From: Puniceicoccales bacterium
GTDB lineage: Bacteria > Verrucomicrobiota > Verrucomicrobiia > Opitutales > UBA953
Direction: 5' to 3'
DNA length: 64,000 nt
Assembly (NCBI GenBank): GCA_031256995.1
Contig: JAIRPL010000053.1
Coordinates: 1-64,000, forward strand
Part shown: in pieces, positions 29,440 to 37,472 of the stretch
How positions within the stretch are numbered: the stretch's first letter is position 1
Layout: every line of letters begins with the position of its first letter
Program-made: the position numbers and the translations under genes
The notes under the pieces: model-generated
Database searches by the model: none
Seen by the model: only the letters and a program-made list of their open reading frames with translations
Told to the model about the DNA's origin: nothing

Positions 29440-30612
29440 ATGGAACCAATCAAGAAAGAGCGTCAGATCGAGGATCTTCTCAATAACGAAGTCGCCGGCT
29501 TTGGGAAAAGCAGCGCACCACAACCCCACGCACCCGCAAAAACCCCTTGGAAAAGTTCAGACATTGCCCTCATCACATTCTTCGTCTGCCTCATCGCCTT
29601 AATTATTTTTTTCGCATGGGAATACGGCGAAACACTCAGCACCAGGGCACCGGTGCCAGCCCGTCTCTCCTCCTTCAAAAGTTCAGAACCCTTTCTCACC
29701 GAGACATGGTTCAAACAAAACATCCTCGCCCCCAAAGGCTCCGCTCCACTGACCTCCGGGCAAGTACTCGAAAAACTCTACAAACTTGAGCAAATCAAGC
29801 ATGCCTCCTTCACGCCCCAACTCGACGGGAATGACATAAAATTTTCCGTTTGGGAACGCACTCCCGCCTTTCGCTATGTCCAGAAAGGCTCCAACGGCCC
29901 GATAATGCGATTTGTGGACAACGAGGGCGTGATTTACAGCGCCATCAACTACCCTTCAACACTCCGCCGGCAGCTTCCGGAAATCCGTGACATACCAGAA
30001 TCGGAAATCACTCTCCCGGAGGAGAATGAGGATAAAAAAACGTCCCCCAATCCCCATCCCCAGACATCCGCGCACACGGCCAAAAAAGACGATGCCCCAT
30101 CACCACCCACCCCCATGGCACTTTCCGCCATCCGGGGTGGCGCAACGCTGGCCATGTTCGCAAAGATTGCCGCGCAAACACTTGGGGATGAGATGCAAAA
30201 ATGGCTCTGCATCTCCGCCCGGGACTACCGGGCGCTCCCTCCCGCCATCGGAACCGAAAGTGCATCTGCACCAACATTTTATCAAGTAAAACGCCCCCCC
30301 GTTTACATTCGCGTCATCCTTGACCCGCAACGCCAGCCATTCCCCATGCCTGCGGGCACGCGTCTGCGCCAACTCGTTTTTTCCGCCGAACCGGAACGCT
30401 TCGCCCGCGAATTGCGCGAATACGCAAAGTCCGGCGTGCGCCAATGGATAACCACAAAAATGACACAGGAATCCGCCCAGTTTTCCCAATTCGACCTATG
30501 CATGTACGAGGAAAAAACCAGCCCCGGAACCAATCAAAGCCAGCGGGTGGTGCTCCTGCGGCCCGTCATTGACTCGCGCAAGACCGAATTCCCGGATCCC
30601 AACCACCCATGA
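29440..30612 (+). CDS. ftsQ: FtsQ-like cell division protein
   Basis: 390 residues with a short cytoplasmic N-terminus, one membrane segment at about 42-63 (IALITFFVCLIALIIFFAW) and a large periplasmic part. The phrases WERTPAFRYV and FVDNEGVIYSAINYP match the FtsQ/DivIB beta-domain signature (a VD..G motif). A Pro/Thr/Asp-rich linker at about 185-225 is unusual, and the protein is longer than E. coli FtsQ (276). FtsQ scaffolds the divisome with FtsL and FtsB. Its stop overlaps the ftsA start in ATGA, which supports the identification. AT content is a little higher than its neighbours. Confidence 0.8.
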   Translation: MEPIKKERQIEDLLNNEVAGFGKSSAPQPHAPAKTPWKSSDIALITFFVCLIALIIFFAWEYGETLSTRAPVPARLSSFKSSEPFLTETWFKQNILAPKGSAPLTSGQVLEKLYKLEQIKHASFTPQLDGNDIKFSVWERTPAFRYVQKGSNGPIMRFVDNEGVIYSAINYPSTLRRQLPEIRDIPESEITLPEENEDKKTSPNPHPQTSAHTAKKDDAPSPPTPMALSAIRGGATLAMFAKIAAQTLGDEMQKWLCISARDYRALPPAIGTESASAPTFYQVKRPPVYIRVILDPQRQPFPMPAGTRLRQLVFSAEPERFARELREYAKSGVRQWITTKMTQESAQFSQFDLCMYEEKTSPGTNQSQRVVLLRPVIDSRKTEFPDPNHP

Positions 30613-31847
30613 GCGCCGATTCCCAATACATTGCCGTCACGGACATCGGCACCTCGAAAGTCGTGGTCATCGTCGGGGAGCGCCCAAGGCCGGGGCAGAA
30701 CGTTTTTCCAAAAATTCTCGGGATGGGGGAATGCGAGACCGGCGGCGCGCTTTGCAAGGGCAGGGTTCTCGACGAAGGAAAGCTCGCGGAAGCATTGGGA
30801 AAAGCCTGCCAGAAAGCCGAAAATGACGCTCATTGCAGGATTAAAATTTCAACCTCCGCCATCTCCATCACCGGCCCCACACTCCTCGGAAAACGCCTCA
30901 CTGGAGAAATCGCCATCCCCCCAAACACACTTGTCCGCCCTCAAAACCTCCGCGAGGCACAACGCGCCGCCATCGCAAAAGAGTCCTTTCCGCCGGGATA
31001 CACACGCTGTTTCAGCCGCGGGCAACCAACCTTCCTCGACGGCATCCTGACTCCCAAGCCCATTGGAAAACCGGCACGGTCACTGAAATCCGGTTACTGG
31101 GCCGTCGCCTTGGACCACGAATACCAAAGCCTTCTCTGGCACCTCGAAACCCGGCTCGGCCTGCACTTCGACCTCATGCTGCCATCCAGCTGCGCATCCG
31201 CCTTCCTGCATTCCACGCCAAGGGACCGCGAAACCGGCGTGCTCGTCCTGGACATCGGCGCGGGCGTCACCGACTACGTGCTTTACGCCCGCGGCCACAT
31301 CGTCGGCACGGACGTCCTGCCCGTGGGCGGGGACCATTTTGACGAGGACCTTTGCGTGGCCTTTGGTCTCAAAAATCATATTGTCGCCAGCAAGTTACGC
31401 TGTGAAAACGGGTTAAAATCCAAACCTTGGCCGCAAACCCTGCCAATCCCCTCCGACACAAACGACGCCGTTGCCCAGGATGGATTTTCCGCCAACAACC
31501 GCATTCCCACCCACGCCGTCAGGCAGGTCCTTCGCGCACGCGCCGCGGACCTCTTCGCGCTCATCCGCGCAAGAATTGGCCCACTGGCCTCCCCCGAGCA
31601 TCTGGTAAACGGCCTGATTCTTACCGGGGGCATGGCCTATCAAGACGAGATCGACGACGTCGCGCAGAGCGTTTTTGGCCGTCACGTCTCCCCCGGAGCC
31701 TTCCCGGAATGGGTGCCCGAGAAACTTTTTTCATTCAAATACAGCACCGCCCTCGGCCTCTTCGCCGCCGCGCACGCGGAAGCCGCGATGCCGCCGCCAC
31801 GACGCAAATCCTTGTGGGAGCGAATCTTCCGTCCAAAAAACGTTTAG
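30609..31847 (+). CDS. ftsA: Cell division protein FtsA
   Basis: 412 residues, an actin-like ATPase that tethers FtsZ to the membrane. Phosphate-1 is TDIGTSKVVVIVGE, phosphate-2 LVLDIGAGVTDYVLY and the adenosine motif NGLILTGGMAYQDEID. The C-terminal RRKSLWERIFRPKNV is a Trp/Phe/Arg amphipathic helix that fits the membrane targeting sequence. The 1C domain is diverged. It overlaps ftsQ by 4 bp. ftsZ, the normal next gene, is absent: repeat debris and an unrelated minus-strand gene follow. Confidence 0.93.
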   Translation: MSADSQYIAVTDIGTSKVVVIVGERPRPGQNVFPKILGMGECETGGALCKGRVLDEGKLAEALGKACQKAENDAHCRIKISTSAISITGPTLLGKRLTGEIAIPPNTLVRPQNLREAQRAAIAKESFPPGYTRCFSRGQPTFLDGILTPKPIGKPARSLKSGYWAVALDHEYQSLLWHLETRLGLHFDLMLPSSCASAFLHSTPRDRETGVLVLDIGAGVTDYVLYARGHIVGTDVLPVGGDHFDEDLCVAFGLKNHIVASKLRCENGLKSKPWPQTLPIPSDTNDAVAQDGFSANNRIPTHAVRQVLRARAADLFALIRARIGPLASPEHLVNGLILTGGMAYQDEIDDVAQSVFGRHVSPGAFPEWVPEKLFSFKYSTALGLFAAAHAEAAMPPPRRKSLWERIFRPKNV

Positions 31848-32215: not shown

Positions 32216-32370
32216 GGGTTGTGTCCGGAAAGTTTCGCACATTTGTGGAGGCATGCGGAGGGCGAGGGACGGTTTGTTGTCGGTTCTTTCGGGATTTTGG
32301 TTCATCGGGATTGGCTCCTCCTCATTCTCATGGCCTTAAAAATCTGCGCAAGATTCAGGGCGTAATCCGC
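32216..32370 (-). repeat. Dispersed repeat, inverted partial copy 3 plus IS256 leader
   Basis: 32216-32290 is the reverse complement of the shared core of the repeats at 1-118 and 463-580, ending at the same GGACACAACC boundary. Next to it (about 32290-32370) is the IS256 start region also seen at 146-200, including AGATTTTTAAGGCCATGAGA and the ATGAACCAAAATCCC start. The pieces are joined in a different order than at the left end, showing rearrangement. Confidence 0.75.
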
Positions 32371-32604: not shown

Positions 32605-34680
32605 TCAATAGCCCTTATCCTCAATTGCAGGGAGCGGTAAAATTTCTGGAATTCCAATTGACCGTAAATACTCATAGGTATTGTCGAAATATTTTTGATC
32701 CCGTGTGGCATCTGGAGGATTGTTTCCATGAGGCACAAAAATAACCATGCCCTGCCGTGCCCGCGTGAGTAAAACGCGATAGGCATTTTTTAGATAATCC
32801 CGATTTTGCTTATGATGGATATTCTCCCATTTGTTGCCTCGGAAATTATGATACGACCACGAATTATTTTCTGAAATGCGCAAGTCTCCGTCCCACGCGA
32901 CACATGTCCAATCCAACTCCAACCCTTGAATTTGAAATTCAGTTGCGACAGATTCGAGATAGAAACTGGAACGCGGGTCATCCTTGCCTTCGAGAAAATA
33001 GTGAACAGGGTCGGCTCCCATGCCAACATCTATGGCATAAGGTTTCAGGCGCAATGCTTTGGAAGATGCGAGTAATCCAATGCGTTCGGAGCCACGTGCT
33101 TTCGTGCGCAGCCAATCCTTAGCAAGATGCAAATTGCGTGTTATCACAATTGGGTATTTGGAAAGTTTCCCAAACAACTCCCGCCCGCGGATAATATCCA
33201 AATCCAGCAGTGCTTTGACAAACGCGGACACTTTCTCCGAACGGAAGGAACGCATGGAAACGTCCAAATGTAATTGTGGATAAAATGTTGTTCGATTGGC
33301 GCAGTTTTTCGCTTTTTCAACAGTGTTTCCTGAAGCATATTCATCATCGGTAATTTTGTCAGATAAACAAATTTTCCAATGCGGAAATTTTATAGTTGCG
33401 GCCTCTATCCATGCGCCAATTCCCGCTTCGCCAGTGTTGATTTCCTGCCCACCTCCGACGAGGCAAACGATTACCGCCCAATCTAAATGTCTGTCCATAT
33501 AGGAAATAAGAAATTCCGGTTCTGATTGATTGAAACCAAGGATTTTCTTTTTTCGCTGCATGAAATTTCGTGTCATCTGTAAGTTCCACGCGCGCTGGGC
33601 TTCGTCAAAAATAACAACATGTTCGGAAGGTGCTGCCGTGTTGCGGATAGCCTCGTCCCGAAAATGATGAACGTTTTGAATGAACGATTTTACCTCCGTT
33701 GCCACGTCACCTTTTCGTTTTCGTTCACCTCTTTGCGCCATCCGGGCTATTTCATCCCTCACCAGCGCCTCGTTTAACACGGAAACCAATGGGCCGTTTC
33801 CTGACAAATAAACAGCATGAGTTTGAGAGCGTTTTTCGTGTTTCAAGGTCGCAATATTCAGGCCAACCAAGGTTTTCCCCGCCCCCGGCACCCCTGTTAC
33901 GAAACAAATGGTTTTTTGTTTTTTACGCGCTGCTCCTTCGATAATAGTTTTCACGCAAGCCGATGTGCTTGTAATGTTTTTCGCACCCGCATCATTGCGG
34001 GTGATCTCCATTACGGAATGTTGTGAATAAAGGGAGCGCGCGGCTTCGATAATTGTTGGTGTCGGGCAATACGCGGTATTTTCCCATTCATTCCCCATTG
34101 AGGTAAGATTTCCATTCCCGTTTGATAGTTGGTTCAGAAATGTCCGTGTTCCTTTGATTCCAAGAAAGAGTGGGCGTGCAATGTTGTCGGACGAAAATTT
34201 GAGATCAACGGCCCTTCGTTCGGTTTTTGTTGCAATACATATTGGAATTACAACAGCAGAATGGCTTCCCTTGTGAAAATTTTTCAGGTCAAGCGCATAA
34301 TCCCAAACTTGGTCAATGTCAGATTGTTTGAATCTTTTTTCGCCTACTTTGAATTCTATAATCACTATATGCGGGACATTGGCCAACTTAAATAATAACA
34401 GAGCATCAATCCTTCGTCCCATACGCGGGATGTTAAATTCGAGAAAAATTCTGCATGGCAAAGTTTCCGGGATGATGTTTTGTAAAATTCCAATTTCCTC
34501 CAGCCAAGCGTTTGTCTGGGCTGGAGTCGTATCGAAGCCATCACGACAACTGTTTATAGCAAGCTCCCCGATAATTTTCTCTGATGTTGTCGAAAGAAAA
34601 GCTATTTTATCCGCACGATACCAAGCTCGATGGGTAACATCGAGTGGGACCCGGGTTTCTAATGTTCTTTCAGTTGGCAT
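32605..34680 (-). CDS. PD-(D/E)XK nuclease fused to a DUF2075-type helicase, probable defence protein
   Basis: 691 residues. Residues about 30-190 look like a PD-(D/E)XK nuclease: Glu39 (IIGELA), Asp92 (GRRIDALLL), Glu109 and Lys111 (IVIIEFKVG), then QVWDYALDL. From about 245 a superfamily-1-like DUF2075 helicase follows: Walker A GVPGAGKT (263-270), Walker B VVIFDEAQRAWN (about 330) and YRVLLTRARQGMVIF near 645. Single-chain nuclease-helicase proteins of this kind are known in phage defence (for example Nhi). That comparison is from memory and not verified. The gene is strikingly AT-richer than its surroundings, stands alone and borders IS debris, so it was probably acquired. Walker and nuclease residues look intact, so it may be active. 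Confidence 0.8.
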   Translation of the reverse strand: MPTERTLETRVPLDVTHRAWYRADKIAFLSTTSEKIIGELAINSCRDGFDTTPAQTNAWLEEIGILQNIIPETLPCRIFLEFNIPRMGRRIDALLLFKLANVPHIVIIEFKVGEKRFKQSDIDQVWDYALDLKNFHKGSHSAVVIPICIATKTERRAVDLKFSSDNIARPLFLGIKGTRTFLNQLSNGNGNLTSMGNEWENTAYCPTPTIIEAARSLYSQHSVMEITRNDAGAKNITSTSACVKTIIEGAARKKQKTICFVTGVPGAGKTLVGLNIATLKHEKRSQTHAVYLSGNGPLVSVLNEALVRDEIARMAQRGERKRKGDVATEVKSFIQNVHHFRDEAIRNTAAPSEHVVIFDEAQRAWNLQMTRNFMQRKKKILGFNQSEPEFLISYMDRHLDWAVIVCLVGGGQEINTGEAGIGAWIEAATIKFPHWKICLSDKITDDEYASGNTVEKAKNCANRTTFYPQLHLDVSMRSFRSEKVSAFVKALLDLDIIRGRELFGKLSKYPIVITRNLHLAKDWLRTKARGSERIGLLASSKALRLKPYAIDVGMGADPVHYFLEGKDDPRSSFYLESVATEFQIQGLELDWTCVAWDGDLRISENNSWSYHNFRGNKWENIHHKQNRDYLKNAYRVLLTRARQGMVIFVPHGNNPPDATRDQKYFDNTYEYLRSIGIPEILPLPAIEDKGY

Positions 34681-34884
34681 TCTGATATTTTAATTTGTCA
34701 TGCACAGTATCGCGAATTTGCCGTTTGTTGAATGTTTTTCGGAAACAAAGTTCCAGCCTTTTATAGAAATTGGGAATCCCAAGCCGCCTTTGAGAGTTCA
34801 TTGAGTTGGGTTAATTGTTGTGGCATTTTCTGTGTTTTAGGTTGGATTTTTTCACGTCGGCCGGGTGCGGCGCGGGTGGCGAGG

Positions 34885-36969
34885 TTAGTCGATGATGCGC
34901 ACGCCGCCGAGGTCGGCGCTGGCGACGGTGCGGGCGTAGGCGCGGAGGGACTTCGGCACGGGGCGGGCGCGGGAGGGTTTGTAGGCGAGCGGGCCTTTGG
35001 CTTGCTCGGCGGCGCGGCGGGCGTCAAGCTCGGTGGCGCCCAGGCGGACGTTGATGGCGCGGGCGGGGATGTCGATGTCGATGAGGTCGCCGTCGCGGAC
35101 GAGGGCGATGTCGCCACCGGCGGCGGCTTCGGGGGAGATGTGGCCGATGGAGAGGCCGGAGGTGCCGCCGCTGAAGCGTCCGTCGGTGATGAGGGCGCAG
35201 TGTTTGCCGAGGTGTTTCGATTTGATGTAGCTGGTGGGGTAGAGCATTTCTTGCATGCCGGGGCCGCCGCGGGGGCCTTCGTGGGTGATGACGACCACGT
35301 CGCCGGCTTTCACTTGGTCGAGGAGGATGGCTTGGACGGCGGCGTCCTGGGAGTGGTAGACTTTGGCGGGGCCGCTGAATCGGTGGATGCTGGCGTCCAC
35401 ACCGGCGGTTTTCACGACGCAGCCGTTCCGGGCGATGTTGCCTTTGAGGATGGCGAGGCCGCCGTCCTGGGTGTAGGCGTGGGCGGTGTCGCGGATGCAG
35501 CCGGTGGCGCGGTCGGTGTCGAGGGTGGCGTGGGTGGCGTCCTGGGTGCCGAGGGCGTGGCTGGGGCGGCGGCCGGGGGCGGAGGAGTAGATGCGGAGGG
35601 CTTCGGCGGTGGGGACGGCAGGGGTGGCCGGGGGCGCGTCGGTGGCGGCGGTGGCGGACGGGGTGGGGATGGTGGACGAGGTGGACGAGGCGGACGGTGC
35701 GACGGCGGGTGCGGTGGCGGCAGCTTGGGTGGTGATGGCGGTGGCGGCGGTGATGGTGGACGGGGCTGCGACGGCGGTGGCAGACGGGGCGCCGGTGGAG
35801 ATAGTGGACGGGGCGGGGGGTGTGATGGCGGCGGGGGTGGGGAGGATGGTGTGGCGGGCGATGGCTTGGGCGAGGGTGAGGCCGTCGGCGCGGCGGGTGG
35901 TGGTGTCGATGAGGTTGGCGGCGGCGAGTTGTTCCATGATGGCGAGGATGCCGCCGGCGCGGTTGACGTCCTGGATGTGGTATTTGGGGGAGTTGGGGGC
36001 GACTTTGCACAGGCAGGGGACGCGGCGGGAGAGGGCGTCGATGTCGTCCATGGTGAAGTCGACCCCGGCTTCGTGGGCGATGGCGAGGAGGTGGAGGATG
36101 GTGTTGGTGGAGCCGCCCATGGCGATGTCGAGGGCCATGGCGTTGAGGAAGGCTTGTTTGGTGGCGATGGCGCGGGGGAGGATGGTGGTGTCGCCGTCGC
36201 GGTAGTGGCGGCGGGCGTTTTCGACGATGAGGCGGGCGGCGTCGTGGAAGAGGCGGGCGCGGTTTTTGTGGGTGGCGACGATGGTGCCGTTGCCGGGGAG
36301 GGCCAGGCCGATGGCTTCGTTGAGGCAGTTCATGGAGTTGGCGGTGAACATGCCCGAGCAGGAGCCGCAGGTGGGGCAGGCGGCGTGTTCGAGGGCGGTG
36401 ATGGCGGCGTCGGGGATGGTGGTGTCGGCGGCGTCGGTCATGACGTTGATGAGGTCGAGGTGGCGGTCGCCGAGTTCGCCGGCTTCCATCGGGCCGCCGG
36501 AGACGAAGAGGGCGGGGATGTTGAGGCGCATGGCGGCCATGAGCATGCCGGGGGTGATTTTGTCGCAGTTGGAGATGCAGAGCATGGCGTCGGCCTTGTG
36601 GGCGTTGACCATGTATTCGACGGAGTCGGCGATGAGGTCGCGCGAGGGGAGGGAGTAGAGCATGCCGTCGTGGCCCATGGCGATGCCGTCGTCGATGGCG
36701 ATGGTGTTGAACTCGGCGGCGAAACAGCCCGCGGCCTCGATCTCGCGTTTCACCGTCTGGCCGATTTCGTGGAGGTGGGTGTGGCCGGGGACGAATTGGG
36801 TGAAGGAGTTGACGATGGCGATGATGGGGTTGCCGAACTGGCTGTCTTTCATGCCGTTGGCTCGCCAGAGGGCGCGCGCGCCGGCCATGCGGCGGCCTTG
36901 GGTGCTGGTGGCGCTGCGGAGCGGGATGGCGTATTGAGTGGGATTGCTGGAAGTGCTGCTACAGCTCAT
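34885..36969 (-). CDS. ilvD: Dihydroxy-acid dehydratase with low-complexity insertion
   Basis: 694 residues from [14 protein letters not shown]. It dehydrates dihydroxy acids in valine, leucine and isoleucine synthesis using an Fe-S cluster. Cys-containing motifs are [12 protein letters not shown] and [19 protein letters not shown]. The end carries [18 protein letters not shown] and [17 protein letters not shown]. coli IlvD has 616 residues. The excess is about 80 Pro/Ala/Ser/Thr-rich residues at 35598-35845, after [11 protein letters not shown] and before [12 protein letters not shown]. Homologous sequence resumes in frame after it, so the gene is probably functional with a flexible loop. 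It works downstream of CimA in isoleucine synthesis. Confidence 0.95.
35598..35845 (-). repeat. Low-complexity insertion within ilvD
   Basis: About 248 bp encoding Pro, Ala, Ser and Thr almost exclusively. The plus strand is correspondingly a G-run-rich tract (GGTGG, GGACGGGG and similar units). It is absent from the usual IlvD family. Multiple G-runs make it a candidate for G-quadruplex formation and for replication-slippage length variation. Confidence 0.85.
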
Positions 36970-37472
36970 GTTGTTTATTGCGAAAAACTCAGGCTCTATG
37001 AAACGAATCCTTGGTGCGAGAGGAATTTTTCGGGGGGAGGGCAGGGAGCTGGTTTTCACGCGGGCAGGATGCGTGGAGGATAAGCGGAAGACTCCCGGAA
37101 CCGCCGTCCTGCGGGATCCTATCTACTGCTTTTGCAATAAGATGTAGAATCGTATTTTCCCGATCTGCCAGGCCGCCCCATGCCGATGCATTCCTGCCCG
37201 CAGGCATCGGGGAATTCTTTTAGATTCTTGGTCGCGAGAAGATTTCCCGGATAAATTTCACCTTATCTCTCGCAAATTGAGATACTTGCAACATGCGCAC
37301 CCCGCCGCGCTCCGGAGGAGATCCAAGATGGCCAGCTTCGAGGGAAAAGCCTTGAAAGAGATCGAGGCGTTTTTTTATTTATCGGGTCCCCTTCGGGACT
37401 TTCCCTTTATGCCAACGACCCCGGATTGTAGTCTAAATTATTCTCATTTCGCATGTTCCGCCATCTCGCACG
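36970..37472. other. Intergenic region upstream of ilvD with two Fur-box-like sites
   Basis: 503 bp. It contains CGCAAATTGAGATACTTGCAA at 37271-37291 and, on the minus strand, AATGAGAATAATTTAGAC near 37434-37451, both resembling Fur-box half-sites. A well-placed GGAGGAGAT precedes an ATG at 37328, opening a frame that runs antisense into panE and is unlike any known protein. A small GTCCC-CTTC-GGGAC hairpin lies near 37387. I recognise no riboswitch or T-box. Confidence 0.4.

Follow-up and report, generated by a model that had tools for sequence, protein, structure and literature searches.

The window analysed here, 64,000 nucleotides of contig JAIRPL010000053.1 from a Puniceicoccales bacterium (assembly GCA_031256995.1), carries a solitary gene whose product joins a putative nuclease to a helicase in one polypeptide. 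A sequence-only reading had put it forward as a candidate phage defence system and had asked whether it belongs to Nhi, a system in which one gene is described as encoding a nuclease-helicase that nicks phage DNA and unwinds it (PMC12904381), or represents a new type. The locus thus raises two questions, namely what this protein is related to, and which function best accounts for its sequence, predicted structure and distribution. We addressed them through profile searches, structure prediction, phylogeny and a survey of the neighbourhoods of its homologues.

Gene, locus and mobile-element traces

The gene occupies positions 32605..34680 on the minus strand as an uninterrupted 691-residue open reading frame with an ATG start, and the genome holds one copy of it. 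Its G+C content is 44.6% (42% at third codon positions), compared with a mean of 61.4% (SD 4.1) for 2-kb stretches outside the island and 51–68% for other open reading frames sampled across the window. The gene is therefore about 4 SD low in G+C, and the lowest values of the whole window fall within it, in keeping with the earlier remark that it is far more AT-rich than its surroundings. It also stands alone, as had been noted: its neighbours, assigned with Pfam, are an ftsA-like gene (30609-31847) and ilvD (34885-37059), and neither a partner gene nor another defence gene adjoins it at this locus.

The two neighbours have peculiarities of their own. The ilvD gene contains an insert of approximately 100 residues between its two domains, rich in Thr, Ala, Pro and Ser, and in several same-genus relatives that lack the insert the two domain matches are nearly contiguous. 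The ftsA-like gene is only ~34% identical to same-genus copies and is not followed by ftsZ. FtsZ (PF00091), present in 51 of 57 relatives, was not found in the assembly, but with the genome at 90% completeness, the gene may merely have escaped assembly.

The sequence-only reading had the gene bordered by repeats from mobile elements, which holds for one side only. At 32216-32369 lies a 152-bp relic of a Mutator-family (IS256-like) element, in which the two element ends meet at an 8-bp shared stretch and the interior is missing. Matches to either end of this element recur at about 34 further sites in the genome, many of them at contig ends, and the transposase encoded by a full-length copy (L144) is of the Mutator family (Transposase_mut, PF00872). 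The element has therefore probably broken the assembly. A second internally deleted copy was seen at 121-579 of the window. On the other side of the gene, the flank at 34660-34890 has no further copy anywhere in the genome, and a search for tandem repeats around the gene found none. The two flanks share no repeat, so that no mobile element with matching ends was found around the gene, and the term "island" is generous for one gene with a relic on a single side. The insertion point is not definable by comparison with an empty site, because ftsA and ilvD lie on separate contigs in the same-genus drafts.

Domain architecture and active sites

The C-terminal part of the protein (residues 256-650; 32731..33915, minus strand) matches the SF1 helicase family PF09848 with E = 3.6e-79. 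This family is Pfam's Schlafen group 3 helicase, formerly DUF2075, so that the proposed fusion to a DUF2075-type helicase is borne out. The helicase motifs, all encoded on the minus strand, comprise the Walker A sequence GVPGAGKT (residues 263-270, including Lys269; 33871..33894), the Walker B or motif II sequence DEAQR (residues 359-363; 33592..33606), and motif VI, VLLTRAR (residues 636-642; 32755..32775), in which R640 is a putative arginine finger. The predicted nuclease domain precedes the helicase (residues ~19-185; 34126..34626, minus strand) and contains the E-F-K triplet of the (D/E)xK catalytic core at residues 109-111 (34348..34356, minus strand).

Conservation was assessed in 83 homologues from many bacterial phyla and one thaumarchaeon, the others being 27-55% identical to the query. 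In all 83, the nuclease residues E81, R86, D92, E109, K111, Q124 and Y128 are identical, as are the helicase residues G263, K269, T270, D359, E360, Q362, R363, R477 and R640, while R642 is shared by 82. The full invariance of both sets argues that the nuclease and helicase active sites are under selection together. The window copy has every invariant residue of both sites, and the PD-(D/E)XK motif set, formerly recognized from a single sequence, is indeed intact.

An AlphaFold2 model of the whole protein, computed from 79 homologues, has a mean pLDDT of 90.2 and a pTM of 0.89. The models place a helix at residues 53-69, strands at 77-84, 89-99 and 102-111, a second helix at 119-135, and a further strand at 143-150 in the N-terminal core, and this predicted helix–three strands–helix–strand order is the PD-(D/E)XK arrangement. 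In a Foldseek search, the best matches of the full model are human SLFN11 (E = 2.7e-9) and SLFN14, followed by Dna2, Upf1 and RecD of RecBCD. When the first 244 residues were modelled and searched alone, the leading matches were mostly PD-(D/E)XK nucleases, including a Pyrococcus abyssi repair endonuclease, NucS, EndoMS, Can2/Card1, McrC, Dna2, EcoO109I, MspJI and DdmD. The best E-value among them is a moderate 0.0065, and the nuclease assignment therefore rests on the consistency of this list together with the motif set. Structure prediction thus yields a nuclease-like fold for a domain that had been named from its motifs. A sequence search of the PDB returned nothing useful, and NCBIfam and PHROGs gave no informative match to the protein.

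Family, distribution and genomic context

The choice between Nhi and a new type turned out to have a third answer. Residues 18-680 match positions 3-653 of the 657 in the PADLOC model PDC-S41 (PDLC05014) with E = 2.2e-265 and 880 bits, and on this profile match the protein belongs, over its full length, to a candidate family that had already been catalogued, and is not a new type. The PDC families stem from a guilt-by-embedding screen (Payne et al. 2024, preprint doi 10.1101/2024.01.29.577857, as cited in PMC12988326), and most of them are described as still awaiting validation (PMC12988326). In our searches, we found no publication that names or tests PDC-S41, and nothing in the literature that joins DUF2075 with phage defence and a nuclease.

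Membership of Nhi or AbiO by the PADLOC models was ruled out, because the matches do not extend over the full length but are confined to the Walker A region (Nhi, residues 252-283, E = 5e-4; AbiO, residues 243-284, E = 3e-4). For comparison, PADLOC's Nhi model was used to retrieve three proteins of the Nhi family. PF09848 is present in all three, and the best match of Nhi-family proteins to the PDC-S41 model has E = 8e-4. Aligned with hhalign, the PDC-S41 and Nhi profiles match over 420 columns across both domains (probability 95%, E = 2e-8), spanning the nuclease motif, Walker A, DEAQR and TRAR, and IPRMGRRID...EFK of PDC-S41 is placed against IPQINEEFD...EIK of Nhi. With the nuclease part alone, only the core aligned, over 32 columns at a probability of 32%. 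Both domains align although the PADLOC models keep the proteins apart, which argues for a homologous architecture in separate families. The names Nhi and AbiO themselves seem, on sequence grounds, to cover one family. On rescanning two Nhi-family proteins (L173 and L174; L numbers are our locus labels), the AbiO and Nhi models scored nearly equal.

Homologues occur at no fewer than 80 loci in the genome scan, in many bacterial phyla and one thaumarchaeon, but their presence is patchy. A match was found in 51 of 388 sampled genomes of the window genome's phylum and in none of eight same-genus genomes, although these are incomplete drafts, so that absence from any one of them is weak evidence. 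Other sampled members of the genome's family provided only two copies (L002 and L003), which lie in a different clade with Bacteroidales, and grouping them with the window copy was rejected (p-AU 2e-61). The tree sister of the window copy is instead L090 on an IMG/VR viral contig, with an SH support of 97 in both trees. Low G+C, patchy presence and an incongruent tree support horizontal acquisition of the gene, which is not syntenic in the relatives sampled. Among the matches listed, the most identical best segment (64%) belongs to a locus from Verrucomicrobia subdivision 3 (L072, 7911-9964), where a frameshift separates the nuclease domain from the helicase domain, indicating either a pseudogene or an assembly error. 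A search for Escherichia coli copies with the DNA of the Samsonia homologue found none.

Several homologues are found among defence genes. In five loci chosen by inspection, the gene adjoins a phage integrase, an N6/N4 DNA methylase and a BglII-type restriction enzyme (L090), adjoins BrxC of BREX (L013), is clustered with a C5 methylase and a type II restriction enzyme (L006), lies with McrC and HsdM (L009), or is followed by genes annotated as McrC and AAA ATPase (L007). Copies also lie on plasmids, on a viral contig or in prophage, and most are on genome contigs in varied contexts. The genes directly next to the homologues at the at least 80 loci are of mixed kinds, with some housekeeping genes (gyrA, gyrB) among them, and of 123 neighbours scanned with PADLOC, only a minority belong to known defence families (GajB and others). 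The defence context is therefore real in several lineages without being universal, as expected for a self-sufficient single gene. Taken together, the PDC-S41 match, the homology to Nhi/AbiO, the foreign composition, the patchy distribution and the defence contexts of relatives support the original proposal of a candidate phage defence gene.

A search for a conserved partner across these loci found none, and no toxin–antitoxin-like partner is conserved. One recurrent neighbour is a Nudix hydrolase gene, which lies directly after the PDC-S41 gene in L002 (2279-2683), L006 (2660-3061) and L077 (10097-10492) and near it in L083 (11046-11450) and L084 (7634-8038). A fourth direct case, L079, is on the opposite strand and belongs to another clade. 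Nudix frames directly downstream number 4 in 81 loci versus 2 in 594 distant genes (Fisher p = 0.002), a comparison among phylogenetically non-independent loci, as the cases fall mainly in one clade (L006 was not placed in the tree). The arrangement suggests a two-gene variant in that clade; at the window locus there is no Nudix frame.

Function and relation to known systems

The PDC-S41 protein is probably a single-polypeptide DNA defence enzyme whose action most likely resembles that of Nhi and its nuclease-helicase relatives. Its Schlafen group 3 helicase would engage DNA that is single-stranded or branched, for instance the intermediates of phage replication, and would move along it at the expense of ATP (Walker A Lys269 and an arginine finger at about R640). 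The fused PD-(D/E)XK domain, through E81, D92, E109, K111 and Q124, would nick or degrade the DNA fed through, and this cleavage would stop the replication of phage or plasmid. Judged by its homology to Nhi, the protein would most likely first use ATP to load on replication intermediates and then cleave the DNA. Defence itself, from its trigger and the cutting of DNA to protection of the cell, whether by direct degradation or through cell death, is what we infer for this protein.

If the helicase instead senses viral nucleic acid in the manner of a Schlafen and the nuclease cleaves RNA such as tRNA, so that growth stops, the protein would be an abortive-infection enzyme. The helicase is indeed closest in the PDB to SLFN11, SLFN14 and the RNA helicase Upf1, and Nhi-family members also match the PADLOC model of AbiO, a family named for abortive infection. 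We nevertheless regard such an RNA-targeting role as unlikely, given that the N-terminal domain is predicted to be of the PD-(D/E)XK type with mainly DNases as structural neighbours, not an AlbA-type RNase, and that for Nhi, the closest relative to have been characterised, the literature describes nicking and unwinding of DNA (PMC12904381) and protection that does not involve abortive infection (PMC11811056).

The sporadic distribution described above (51 of 388 genomes in the phylum, none of eight in the genus) bears on a further reading, in which the protein serves DNA repair or recombination, as a housekeeping nuclease-helicase like Dna2 or AddB whose gene merely happens to be mobile. Dna2 and components of RecBCD/AddAB are among the structural neighbours, and ordinary genes surround the homologues at many loci, but the patchiness, the incongruent tree, the AT-rich composition, and the occurrence of homologues in prophage, plasmid and R-M/BREX/McrBC contexts make a repair function quite improbable. 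We give still less credence to a selfish gene that destroys incoming plasmids or stabilises its carrier element, with phage as an incidental target; it would fit the copies on plasmids and on a viral contig, whereas most copies reside on genome contigs in varied contexts and have no conserved toxin–antitoxin-like partner.

With an Nhi-like defence enzyme as the preferred reading, a broader picture may be sketched tentatively, and we hold it to be doubtful as a whole: PDC-S41, Nhi and AbiO might form one Schlafen-helicase nuclease superfamily with PDC-S41 as its broad bacterial–archaeal branch, one clade of which would be a two-gene system whose adjacent Nudix hydrolase could process a nucleotide signal or product. 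As a single gene, the window copy is ordinary, but it represents, in clean and intact form, a candidate defence family of wide occurrence. Sequence profiles here tie this family to Nhi/AbiO, and the predicted fold ties it to the group III helicases of Schlafens. These ties predict what should matter, namely K111 and K269, DNA rather than RNA, and the phage single-stranded DNA-binding protein SSB, on whose variation Nhi activity is described to depend (PMC12904381, PMC10732053). For a family that spans many bacterial phyla and reaches at least one archaeon, they would also make the mechanism of Nhi a sensible hypothesis to begin with. Should the helicase truly be a prokaryotic relative of an SLFN11-type sensor, a mammalian antiviral helicase would be linked to bacterial immunity.

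Among known systems, PDC-S41 is the same family, from which the window copy differs only in standing alone beside ftsA with no visible defence island. The helicase part has its best structural matches in the group III Schlafens SLFN11 and SLFN14 and shares their Pfam family name. The RNase core of Schlafens has another fold (AlbA-type), whereas the N-terminal domain of the window protein is predicted to have the PD-(D/E)XK fold, and Pfam gave no SLFN_AlbA match in it. Hna also combines a helicase and a PD-(D/E)XK nuclease in a one-protein defence (PMC13381803), but its helicase is of SF2 with the nuclease at the C-terminus, whereas the window protein has an SF1 helicase and an N-terminal nuclease. 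The Nhi-like system (Millman et al. 2022) is listed as containing the nuclease-related NERD domain (PMC10952713), and 20 of 78 PDC-S41 N-terminal domains match NERD weakly (best E = 0.012), a likeness that was compared by description only. The closest resemblance is to Nhi (Staphylococcus epidermidis SERP2475) and AbiO, which likewise consist of a single gene for a PD-(D/E)XK-like nuclease (IPxxxxxxD...IExK) followed by a PF09848 SF1 helicase ending in TRAR. In contrast, identity to Nhi is approximately 18%, the fetched Nhi-family proteins have ~500-525 residues rather than 691, and the Nhi proteins aligned have Gly at the position of E81, the first catalytic Glu of PDC-S41. This sequence comparison places PDC-S41 best as a sister family distantly related to Nhi/AbiO, and an Nhi-like mode of working is plausible for it.
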